DNA of 64,000 bases from Draconibacterium orientale. Its GTDB lineage: Bacteria > Bacteroidota > Bacteroidia > Bacteroidales > Prolixibacteraceae. A model generated the notes under the pieces. The model searched no databases. It was not told where the DNA came from and saw only the letters and a list, made by a program, of their open reading frames with translations. Both the position numbers and the translations under genes were made by a program. Where the stretch lies: NCBI RefSeq assembly GCF_000626635.1, contig NZ_CP007451.1, positions 2,170,001 through 2,234,000 of the forward strand, read 5' to 3'. Below, piece after piece: positions 25,587 through 27,821 of the stretch. Each line of letters begins with the position of its first letter. Positions within the stretch are counted from its first letter, which is position 1.

Positions 25587-25910
25587 ATGGCAACATTAAA
25601 TGAAAAGGAAAGTCGTGATTTTGTATCGCAGATGATTGTAATGGTCAATCAGAATGCAGGATTGCTTACTGATGCCGGTTTCGATCCTACAGCAAGAATC
25701 GAAACGTTGCAGGGTAAACTGCAAACTGCCGACGATGCCGAGGGCGAGCAGCAAAAAGCCCAGGCAGCTGCACTCGATGCTACAAAACTGGCCAACGAAA
25801 CGTTGAAGTTGGCTTACGACGATGCTTCTGCTTTTGTAAACCTGATAGAAGGTTTGCTGGGAAAAGACCACAGTTTGGTGCGTAAGTTGCGTCAGCTGCG
25901 CAAAAAGTAA
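25587..25910 (+). CDS. Small helical protein of unknown function
   Basis: I do not recognise this 107-residue protein. It is acidic at its centre and probably all helical: residues about 38-80 (KLQTADDAEGEQQKAQAA onward) are rich in Ala, Glu, Gln and Lys and could form a coiled coil. The tail LVRKLRQLRKK is strongly basic, and there is no signal peptide or membrane segment, so it should be cytoplasmic. It has a structured leader and a perfect terminator, so it is a free-standing, probably well-expressed small gene. The Ala-rich core and basic tail could suit nucleic-acid binding or a scaffold; no function is claimed. Confidence 0.75.
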   Translation: MATLNEKESRDFVSQMIVMVNQNAGLLTDAGFDPTARIETLQGKLQTADDAEGEQQKAQAAALDATKLANETLKLAYDDASAFVNLIEGLLGKDHSLVRKLRQLRKK

Positions 25911-25927
25911 AAGCGCTGTGAAAATTG

Positions 25928-25961
25928 AATTCCGCCCTGATTTCGGGGCGGAATTTTTTTT
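25928..25961 (+). terminator. Rho-independent terminator of the small helical-protein gene
   Basis: AATTCCGCCC pairs perfectly with GGGCGGAATT over an 8-nt loop, followed by a run of T. It lies 18 bp after the stop. Confidence 0.9.
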
Positions 25962-25982
25962 AAATATTAAATTGGAAAAAAA

Positions 25983-26493
25983 TTTCTCCTCCTGACAGGA
26001 GGAGGGGACCAGCGCAGCTGGTGAGGTGGTGTATTAAATATCCTCAAACATTTTCCTAGCGTGTTTTAAAATGTCACTTTTAATAATCTCCGGGTATTCA
26101 TACACCCATCTGTTTTCATAACGGAGAACGGTAATTCCCAATTTTGCCAATTTCTCATCACGTTCCGTGTCCCACGCGATACTATTAAGGTCGGCATGAA
26201 CTTCACCATCCAACTCAATGGCTAACATCAAATCATAGCAAAAAAAATCAACGATATACATGTCAATAGAATGTTGTCGTCTGAATTTATAACCACCGAT
26301 TTGTTTGTTTTTCAGCATTTTCCAAAGTGTTGCTTCAGCTGCTGTTGAATGGTTTCTGAGGTGTTTTCGGATGTTTTTTAGCTTTTTGCGGTTATGGAGT
26401 TTCATTTTTGATTTAAAAGTAAAGCTAATCGAAATAAAAAACAACCGCCTCACCGCTGTAAACGCGGTCCCCTCCGCCTGAGAGGCGGAGAAA
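25983..26493 (-). mobile_element. DUF559 cassette 1 with terminal inverted repeats
   Basis: A 511-bp unit. Its left end begins TTTCTCCTCCTGACAGGAGG, then GGGGACC, then a second small stem, then TGAGGTGGTGT. Its right end, read on the minus strand, begins TTTCTCCGCCTCTCAGGCGG, then GGGGACC, a second stem, then TGAGGCGGTTGT. The two ends therefore align as ~50-bp inverted repeats, each made of two hairpins. The single gene inside (26034-26405) is a DUF559 protein. No target-site duplication is evident by eye. Mobility is inferred. Confidence 0.7.
26034..26405 (-). CDS. DUF559 (Vsr-like fold) endonuclease-domain protein, copy 1
   Basis: A 123-residue DUF559 protein (PF04480), related in fold to very-short-patch-repair endonucleases and the PD-(D/E)xK superfamily. 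The core is FRRQHSIDMYIVDFFCYD, then LAIELDGEVH: Asp53, Glu64 and Asp66 are the likely metal ligands, and ERDEKLAKLGITVLRYENR is the usual C-terminal block. I use the ATG at 26405; a longer open frame upstream runs through the right terminal repeat. It differs from copy 2 at only one residue (Ala87 versus Pro). Its stop lies immediately inside the left inverted repeat, so gene and ends form one compact cassette. Confidence 0.9.
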   Translation of the reverse strand: MKLHNRKKLKNIRKHLRNHSTAAEATLWKMLKNKQIGGYKFRRQHSIDMYIVDFFCYDLMLAIELDGEVHADLNSIAWDTERDEKLAKLGITVLRYENRWVYEYPEIIKSDILKHARKMFEDI

Positions 26494-26872
26494 GTTCGTG
26501 CTTCAATCAGGCTTTGAAATTCAGGGATCGTGCTTCGAACATTTCTCCTCCAACAATAATAAAATACCTTATTCGCCCCTTTCATGGAGATACGGCAGCA
26601 GTGTAAGTCTTTTTAAGGGGCTGTTGCCGAAGGGGGCAGGAGAAGAGCCTGTCCCCTTCGGGCAAAAGCGAGTATCGGGAGGACCAACGCAGCTGAGGTG
26701 GTCGGTCTGAGATTGTTATTTTTTAGCCTCATAAGACACCACCCCGTCAGCGAATTTGAATTCTTATTTTTCATAGCAGATCAGGTGTCGTTGCCACCCC
26801 TCCTGCAAGGAGTGGAAATATTTCATGCACAAATTTTCTGCTTTACTGTAAAATTTGTTTTGGAAAAAGAAA
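26494..26872. other. Mosaic of repeat fragments between the two DUF559 cassettes
   Basis: This stretch has no credible gene. It holds a partial cassette end (26641-26702), CCACC-rich fragments resembling the cassette tips in the other orientation (about 26741-26760 and 26796-26820), and a short segment after cassette 1 (GTTCGTGCTTCAATCAGG) that recurs after cassette 2. It appears to be a graveyard of earlier insertions. Confidence 0.6.
26641..26702. repeat. Partial solo cassette end
   Basis: This segment shares GAGCCTGTCCC, CGGGCAAAAGCGAG, ATCGGGAGGACCAACGCAGC and TGAGGTGGT with the left end of cassette 2 (26894-26954), but is not joined to a DUF559 gene. Confidence 0.7.
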
Positions 26873-27417
26873 TTTCTCCTCCTGACAGGAGGAGAGCCTG
26901 TCCCGATCGGGCAAAAGCGAGCATCGGGAGGACCAACGCAGCTGGTGAGGTGGTGTATTAAATATCCTCAAACATTTTCCTGGCGTGTTTTAAAATGTCA
27001 CTTTTAATAATCTCCGGGTATTCATACACCCATCTGTTTTCATAACGGAGAACGGTAATTCCCAATTTTGGCAGTTTCTCATCACGTTCCGTATCCCACG
27101 CGATACTATTAAGGTCGGCATGAACTTCACCATCCAACTCAATGGCTAACATCAAATCATAGCAAAAAAAATCAACGATATACATGTCAATAGAATGTTG
27201 TCGTCTGAATTTATAACCACCGATTTGTTTGTTTTTCAGCATTTTCCAAAGTGTTGCTTCAGCTGCTGTTGAATGGTTTCTGAGGTGTTTTCGGATGTTT
27301 TTTAGCTTTTTGCGGTTATGGAGTTTCATTTTTGATTTAAAAGTAAAGCTAATCGAAATAAAAAACAACCGCCTCACCGCTGTAAACGCGGTCCCCTCCG
27401 GCTGGGAGGCGGAGAAA
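26873..27417 (-). mobile_element. DUF559 cassette 2 with terminal inverted repeats
   Basis: A 545-bp near-copy of cassette 1. The right end matches cassette 1 with few changes. The left end carries an additional block of about 34 bp (AGCCTGTCCCGATCGGGCA and following) between the first hairpin and the GACCAACGCAGCTGGTGAGG segment. Sequence just outside both ends is also partly shared with cassette 1 (TTGGAAAAA on the left, GTTCGTGCTTCAATCAGG on the right), so a segmental duplication may explain the pair. Confidence 0.7.
26958..27329 (-). CDS. DUF559 (Vsr-like fold) endonuclease-domain protein, copy 2
   Basis: A 123-residue twin of the copy at 26034, with the same motif residues Asp53, Glu64 and Asp66. 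Only a few nucleotide differences are seen over the gene (for example near 26983, 27068-27071 and 27093), and one changes a residue. Such near-identity means a recent duplication or gene conversion. The same-strand orientation of both copies fits a tandem duplication. Both reading frames are intact. Function in the family is not established; host-encoded copies have often been treated as stand-alone nucleases. Confidence 0.9.
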   Translation of the reverse strand: MKLHNRKKLKNIRKHLRNHSTAAEATLWKMLKNKQIGGYKFRRQHSIDMYIVDFFCYDLMLAIELDGEVHADLNSIAWDTERDEKLPKLGITVLRYENRWVYEYPEIIKSDILKHARKMFEDI

Positions 27418-27469
27418 GTTCGTGCTTCAATCAGGATTTGAAATTCATAAATTAATTGGGCTTCGTTAA

Positions 27470-27523
27470 TTTCTCCTCCTGACAGGAGGAGAGGTATCCG
27501 TCGGCTGACGGATGAGGTGGTGT
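27470..27523. repeat. Solo DUF559-cassette end
   Basis: TTTCTCCTCCTGACAGGAGG is followed by GAGAGG, a stem TCCGTCGGCTGACGGA, then TGAGGTGGTGT. This is a complete two-hairpin end without a DUF559 gene; the second stem differs in sequence from that in cassette 1 but keeps its pairing. Confidence 0.75.
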
Positions 27524-27590
27524 ATTCTACCGTAACAATCTTACCCTCCCGATAGAAATTGTCTTACGTATGATTATCCTTCCAAAACGT

Positions 27591-27821
27591 CAGATAGTCA
27601 TCATCTTTTAGAAGATATACTTCATTTTCCATAAGATAGCCTCCGTCTGATAGAAGATAATCGTGAAAAACCATCAGCGAAAGCAGATCTTCCATAAGAT
27701 GATGATGCGCTGATGCCCGATAGCCTTTCGCTGGCATAAGAGGAAGGCCATCGGGCACAAGATAATGGCGATCTTCCATAAGATAATCGTTCGCTGCCGT
27801 CAGATGATGATGATCTTTTGG
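27591..27821 (-). repeat. Eleven-unit degenerate 21-bp tandem repeat, open as a heptapeptide repeat
   Basis: Eleven units of 21 bp with no stop on the minus strand, reading as heptapeptides such as MEDRHYL, MENEVYL, LSDGGYL, LKDDDYL and TAANDYL (pattern x-x-D/N-x-x-Y-L). Within this open frame the ATG at 27779 would give a 71-residue product ending ...TFWKDNHT at 27564. There is no recognised family and no clear ribosome site. It may be a repetitive DNA element or a remnant of a repeat protein. The surrounding gap (27524-27991) has no other gene. Confidence 0.6.

Follow-up and report, generated by a model that had tools for sequence, protein, structure and literature searches.

DUF559 cassettes are probably minimal mobile elements in which a homing-endonuclease-like protein acts on triplex-forming ends. 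In the window, by which we mean the whole 64-kb stretch analysed from a host genome of 5.13 Mb (a single contig with 5 DUF559 matches), two minus-strand DUF559 genes, each between two inverted ends, and a solo end after them occupy 25983-27521. The preliminary description of this DNA had reported DUF559 genes bracketed by inverted ends of ~50 bp, and the coordinates of both cassettes confirmed it; the ends are ~50 nt long with the exception of the left end of cassette 2 (82 nt). The features of the locus are as follows.

25983..26030, plus strand: cassette 1 left end (TTT, an 8-bp hairpin, a linker, a second hairpin and an 8-nt mirror tail towards the gene)
26034..26405, minus strand: DUF559 gene 1 (123 aa, homing-endonuclease-like nuclease)
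26444..26493, minus strand: cassette 1 right end (inverted, with a compensated change in stem 1)
26494..26552, no strand: spacer of ~49 nt plus a truncated end (TTTCTCCTCC), read from the sequence
26637..26702, plus strand: degenerate solo end (89% identity to part of the cassette 2 left end)
26873..26954, plus strand: cassette 2 left end (worn, with an extra hairpin inserted)
26958..27329, minus strand: DUF559 gene 2 (123 aa, 1 amino acid unlike gene 1)
27368..27417, minus strand: cassette 2 right end (worn, 1 mismatch in stem 1)
27470..27521, plus strand: solo end of the same type as the cassette ends

Cassette 2 (26873-27417) is a near copy of cassette 1, the genes differing at 4 of 372 nt and 1 amino acid. 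Stem 1 of the cassette 1 left end reads CTCCTCCT/AGGAGGAG and its tail GAGGTGGT, with 3 nt between the stop codon of gene 1 and the tail, in keeping with the earlier remark that the stop abuts the left end; stem 1 of the right end reads CTCCGCCT/AGGCGGAG. The solo ends said to lie nearby were located at 27470-27521 and, in degenerate form, at 26637-26702. A 21-nt core of the end matched exactly at 3 places in the window, against a mean of 0.00 in 100 shuffles, and two of these places also matched on the opposite strand with 3 mismatches. A strict scan of all 64 kb for a hairpin plus mirror tail, which misses both worn ends of cassette 2, returned 3 places, every one at the DUF559 locus. Rfam gave 7 matches within 25900-27600, each under its gathering score. 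To the right of the solo end, at 27590-27810, lie imperfect repeats of ~21-27 nt (AGATAATC...TTCCATAAGATAATC), and similar text is also found in the orthologous spacers of genomes G065 and G060.

An end has the order 5' TTT, 8-bp stem, short linker, second stem of variable sequence and 8-nt G-rich tail, stem 1 having a pyrimidine 5' arm and a purine 3' arm. Across 14 ends of the host genome, stem 1 was paired in 98.2% of 112 cells, 6 both-side changes fell in 2 of its 8 pairs, and the covariation score was 0.170 versus 0.067 in shuffles, a value reached by 0 of 500 shuffles; these figures, with the right end of cassette 1, bear out the compensated stem changes of the preliminary description. 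When folded as single-stranded DNA, seven of eight ends gave z <= -2.99 (six of them z <= -3.2, one -2.99), the weakest fold being that of the cassette 2 right end (z -2.12). The two-hairpin account of the preliminary description needs amending, in that what stays constant in an end is one hairpin plus the mirror tail, and a second hairpin may or may not be present. The information lies in the tail, and the second hairpin, on which that description laid stress, is secondary. The tail points towards the gene in the window but elsewhere also points away from it, depending on the pair.

An end-type pattern found 12 copies in the host genome and 0 for the reversed control, the pattern being strict enough to miss, for example, both right ends in the window. 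Geneless inverted pairs of ends were seen at L009 (gap 19 nt) and L041 (gap ~50 nt). To read the ends as terminators of transcription, or as hairpins that stabilise the mRNA of an ordinary small gene, is scarcely credible: GC-rich hairpins do stand directly beside the stop codon, but no T run follows the hairpin, a terminator has no need of a mirror tail, and such ends also occur without a gene and inside the coding sequence of single-copy ileS.

The relation between stem and tail is that of a mirror. In the window, the arm AGGAGGAG reversed is GAGGAGGA, and the tail is GAGGTGGT; by inspection of the window ends, a 5' arm with CCCC goes with a GGGG tail and an end with CTCCGCC has the tail GAGGCGG. 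The relation was measured on 511 hairpins, taken from 615 with purine arms at 147 loci and lying <=450 bp from DUF559 domains; a tail G for an arm G, and a tail A or T for an arm A, were scored as matches (locus L004, the same stretch as L003, was left out here as well as from the hairpin-plus-tail count and the protein sets, while the interrupted loci L062, L098 and L119 were kept in). A perfect 8-nt mirror match was present on the 3' side of 219 of the 511 hairpins, while a perfect direct match was present in 97/511 and a perfect mirror match on the 5' side in 26/485. The arms are G-rich and alike, a caveat on this evidence, and because they resemble each other the excess over arms from other loci was modest (mean z 1.05 mirror, 0.48 direct); many arms are also nearly symmetric, and therefore mirror and direct copy both scored. 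With each distinct asymmetric arm counted once (n = 54), the mirror was better for 41, the direct copy for 4 and 9 were tied when the mean score per arm was taken, the corresponding figures by maximum being 23, 2 and 29. In 67 distinct pairs aligned by G/not-G, an arm A stood opposite a tail A 81 times, T 55 times and C 12 times. Of 255 tails, 144 began 2-5 nt past the stem and another 78 began 10-23 nt past it. This arm-tail relation is the code of a purine-motif intrastrand triplex, and the two-hairpin ends, read by that code, may form one.

Ends of this kind accompany DUF559 across phyla. Hairpins with a mirror tail were counted within <=300 bp of a DUF559 domain on at least one side, the units being reading frames rather than loci, with flanks of <250 nt left out and the interrupted loci L062, L098 and L119 kept in. 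Within the host family, in which 41 of 60 genomes have DUF559, the motif accompanied 65/75 standalone and 8/9 in-frame frames, versus 6/71 and 1/9 at control positions 700 bp further out and 0/75 and 0/9 in shuffles. For the named genomes, represented by the best 80 loci listed (Bacteroidota, Chloroflexota, Cyanobacteria, Planctomycetes, Proteobacteria, Nitrospirae, Omnitrophota and others), the corresponding figures were 40/47 standalone and 20/25 in-frame, with 1/39 and 2/22 further out and 5/47 and 0/25 in shuffles. The plasmid collection gave 6/7 (1/7 further out, 0/7 in shuffles) and viral contigs 14/27 (2/21 and 0/27), and loci of an unrelated gene gave 2/25. Both sides carried the motif in 27/75 standalone and 7/9 in-frame frames of the host family, 27/47 and 17/25 among the best 80 named-genome loci, 1/7 on plasmids and 12/27 on viral contigs. 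Tails pointed inward versus outward in 18 versus 8 standalone and 1 versus 7 in-frame pairs of the host family, 13 versus 15 and 11 versus 8 among the same best 80 loci, 1 versus 0 on plasmids and 12 versus 3 on viral contigs. In a looser first count of hairpins, which this one replaced (it left out L004 and, in its family part, L062, L098 and L119), 22 of 24 large DUF559 proteins had hairpins and gave the impression of a control that had failed; on inspection these proved to be in-frame units.

Of the 41 genomes with DUF559, 33 have a common Bacteroidota end pattern (315 matches versus 13 for its reversed form), as do 4 of the 19 that lack DUF559 (Fisher p 2.5e-5, related genomes not being independent samples). 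It was missing in the other 8 of the 41, and two of the 4 DUF559-less genomes that have it hold 13 and 22 copies. Among phage records, 2 of 50,697 matched the DUF559 protein. Relatives of the protein are encoded on 39 viral contigs (L282-L320), often near the contig end, and on a Sphingomonas parapaucimobilis plasmid (L155) DUF559 with both ends lies between sufB and sufC.

In REP/RAYT systems (REPINs), a small gene lies between inverted palindromes and many pairs are geneless. The comparison drawn with them in the preliminary description holds as logic, since inverted palindrome pairs, some geneless (here L009 and L041), are common to both; it does not extend to the machinery, the DUF559 protein being unrelated to the Y1 (HuH) transposase, and where REP/RAYT has a tetranucleotide tag the DUF559 ends have a longer mirror tail. 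It is very improbable that another transposase, for example a Y1 (RAYT-like) enzyme, moves the ends with DUF559 as a passenger. The inverted hairpin pairs do resemble REPINs and the genome has 12 Y1 matches, but hairpins with a mirror tail were found at 0 of the 12 Y1 transposase genes of the host genome, the Y1 loci have other palindromes, and the association with DUF559 holds in many phyla. The host Y1 transposase genes (L018-L028) have short flanking palindromes of their own, such as ACCACGCGA near L026-L028.

Ends also vary together with the protein. Protein identity and end similarity were correlated over 3135 pairs (rho 0.291; 0.292 between genomes), the largest of 999 permutations reaching 0.132, in a set that excluded pairs with long shared flanks (score >=70), the interrupted loci L062, L098 and L119, and L113 and L116. 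Judged from sequence, this co-variation suggests that the DUF559 protein recognises its ends. Fourteen residues were invariant in 21 divergent members, among them acidic residues and a histidine (E24, D53, E64, D66 and H70 are included). Relatives with solved structures are 3hrl and 3r3p, the latter matching with E 7.6e-7 over profile positions 43-114 and listed as a mobile intron protein; we take 3r3p to be the homing endonuclease I-Bth0305I. In the available text of the papers cited, the YcjD family is a predicted PD-(D/E)XK nuclease related to Vsr (PMC1189080), and a DUF559 gene is classed under the EDxHD homing endonucleases (PMC9403480). DUF559 resembles the EDxHD/Vsr-type enzyme I-Bth0305I in its related nuclease sequence, and resembles such endonucleases in same-site insertion in a conserved gene in several species (available text of PMC3943268 and PMC9403480). 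It differs from them in that no intron or intein was recognised around the gene and in having inverted triplex-forming ends of its own and geneless derivatives.

Related DUF559 genes were found at many places, together with empty sites and geneless ends, in support of the mobile-unit reading put forward in the preliminary description. Fixed positions with unrelated flanks were not the pattern seen, yet some positions are common to several species (upstream of metH in 3 genomes, after gntP in 5, and in ileS); positions are therefore partly conserved, and the distribution partly reflects inheritance or homing. At the window's own site, read in 7 of the retrieved loci, the orthologue of the neighbour gene lacked a cassette in the stretch read in G065 and G060, and G062 had a Y1-transposase-like gene there. 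Downstream of a gntP-like gene, in 30 loci of the genus whose states were read by eye, two DUF559 element types were present at 5 and 2 loci (one of the 2 interrupted), geneless or remnant ends of several types at 7, and no clear element at 16; the five loci of one type may represent one old insertion. Genome G062 has a DUF559 gene and 126-bp units where G090 (91% complete, without a DUF559 match) has a 44-bp half unit, the flanks being 97.6% and 93.3% identical; this difference, in a comparison that leaves out the second G062 DUF559 gene (L356), may be a deletion or equally an insertion. In G068 an element lies directly after a permease stop codon, whereas G086, 88% identical on the left side and rearranged on the right, has none.

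A geneless unit whose tails point outward occurs on 4 related Azospirillum plasmids and is cut down to one hairpin with both tails in 2, one further relative (H81) being left out of the comparison. We rejected this unit as a clean insertion, as the two seemingly empty strains retain a one-hairpin scar, and A. ramasamyi as an empty-site reference, as it is too diverged for exact junctions. None of the sites compared, each scarred, rearranged or too diverged, gave a clean junction flanked by a target duplication. Of the features by which MITEs and mobile elements are recognised, the terminal inverted repeats are present, and so are copies that lack the gene. Taken together, the geneless pairs, scars, empty sites, varied elements at one site and in-frame ileS copies point to mobility. 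At L044, L046, L054, L055 and L354, DUF559 units lie directly after the stop of an ABC permease gene ending in NPVEALRYE or similar, and the 3' end of such genes is possibly a preferred site.

Where DUF559 domains lie in large reading frames, the ends are carried in frame too. Profile scans of 18 of the 42 large frames named as hosts ileS, valS, leuS, hrpA, recG, metH, hisF and bioA, as well as restriction-modification genes and a radical SAM gene; with hisF and the radical SAM gene, the unit sits at the N terminus and not within the protein. In the genus, ileS gave one strong match per genome (E 1e-103 or lower) in 37 genomes; 30 of these loci were retrieved and 23 read, of which 2 were without anchor. 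At the ileS site of the 21 readable loci, 5 had an in-frame DUF559 unit, 3 a shorter scar-like insert (scars being read by eye) and 13 neither. The insert-bearing enzyme is, as far as the assemblies show, the sole IleS of those cells, which suggests that units can persist inside essential proteins. Scars of ends were seen in two unrelated hosts, Azospirillum and the ileS genus. Rickettsia palindromic elements likewise are palindromic repeats inserted in frame in protein genes; they differ in their length of ~150 bp and in that the available text (PMC10969869) speaks of no nuclease gene. In a Rickettsiales frame (L227), DUF559 is accompanied by a series of peptide repeats that resemble the ends, an arrangement reminiscent of those elements. 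At L045, L047, L155 and L156, translated ends give peptides such as SLPLGEGWGG and NPSPEGEG. Peptides of this sort occur widely in protein databases, where they may mark copies of ends that have gone unrecognised.

In the minimal element, two inverted ends would enclose a single gene for a small nuclease of Vsr/EDxHD type (DUF559, YcjD family). While single-stranded, for example during replication, an end would fold on its G-rich strand into a hairpin with the tail as third strand; the DUF559 protein would recognise its own end type in this folded form and nick or cut there, after which repair or recombination would copy and spread, remove or rearrange the unit, and geneless end pairs would move in trans. 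Both the movement and the action of the enzyme, including cutting at the ends and copying of units, are inferred. If the nuclease reads a triplex, it would use an end signal that, to our knowledge, no other mobile element has.

A single transposing unit fails to explain tails that point inward in some pairs and outward in others. Both directions would be accounted for by arrays in which the gene lies either within one unit or between two of them, and this keeps alive the main rival: triplex-end repeats are spread by host recombination or another factor, and DUF559 is a free-standing homing endonuclease gene that targets them, homes in and therefore ends up bracketed. We consider it unlikely, though clearly ahead of the terminator and Y1 readings. 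Both placements of the gene are indeed seen, within a unit whose tails point outward and between units whose tails point inward; arrays of 126-bp units adjoin a DUF559 gene, the protein is related to a homing endonuclease, and 5 of the 21 readable loci of the genus share one ileS site. Homing, however, does not account for how the units spread, the ends track the protein subfamily, and 15 of the 19 DUF559-less genomes lack the end pattern. The reading of the cassettes as mobile elements whose own protein acts on the ends is thus the one we favour.

Single-hairpin ends match the triplex motif of Holder et al. 2015. According to the available text of that paper, its E. coli form, TM_ECO, has 23 copies in K-12, forms a triplex in vitro, is linked to unstable loci and is always intergenic, with no link to transposons, phages or plasmids, and triplex motifs occur in many copies in >260 genomes; the same text calls their origin unclear and reports no mobility functions nearby (PMC4666352). 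TM_ECO resembles the DUF559 ends in its purine-arm hairpin with a mirror third strand after a short loop, its inverted pairs, its partial loss leaving a stem-loop and its wide occurrence in bacteria (available text of PMC4666352). It differs, on the same text, in having no mobility gene and K-12 copies that are all intergenic, whereas here the motif brackets DUF559; the DUF559 ends for their part vary in sequence with the protein, may have a second hairpin before the third strand and occur as in-frame copies in genes. The search of Holder et al., as described in that text, took loops of 1-6 nt between strands, while in the window a second hairpin separates stem and tail.

We put forward, tentatively and at somewhat less than even confidence, a wider reading: a mobile class present in many phyla, in which a Vsr-fold nuclease would read a DNA triplex as end signal, place units between genes and in frame in essential genes (tRNA synthetases), and have given rise to the triplex repeats found in E. 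coli and many other genomes. Such a class would supply the engine behind a repeat that hundreds of bacterial genomes hold in abundance, that forms a triplex in vitro and that marks unstable E. coli loci; it may explain the source of a known bacterial repeat whose origin was left open in print, and it assigns to YcjD and the DUF559 family a role that can be tested. A literature search, limited to the text available, found no paper that connects DUF559, COG2852 or ycjD with hairpin or triplex repeats in the role of a mobile element; within the literature searched, what is new is that the triplex motif is linked to the DUF559 family, that it is spread over phyla and that in-frame copies of it occur in essential genes.

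In E. coli K-12, the letters of Holder copy no. 9 are present at 2163 of locus L158, between fabI and ycjD (1642-1995 in L158), the DUF559 gene of that species; identical letters are given for three other copies, and the assignment to no. 9 is by map position (29 minutes). The sapF-fabI interval was rejected as a clean empty site, efflux genes lying there in the two ycjD-less strains examined (see also the available text of PMC12817139). Among 5426 complete E. coli genomes, 3316 have ycjD together with most of the sequence around it.
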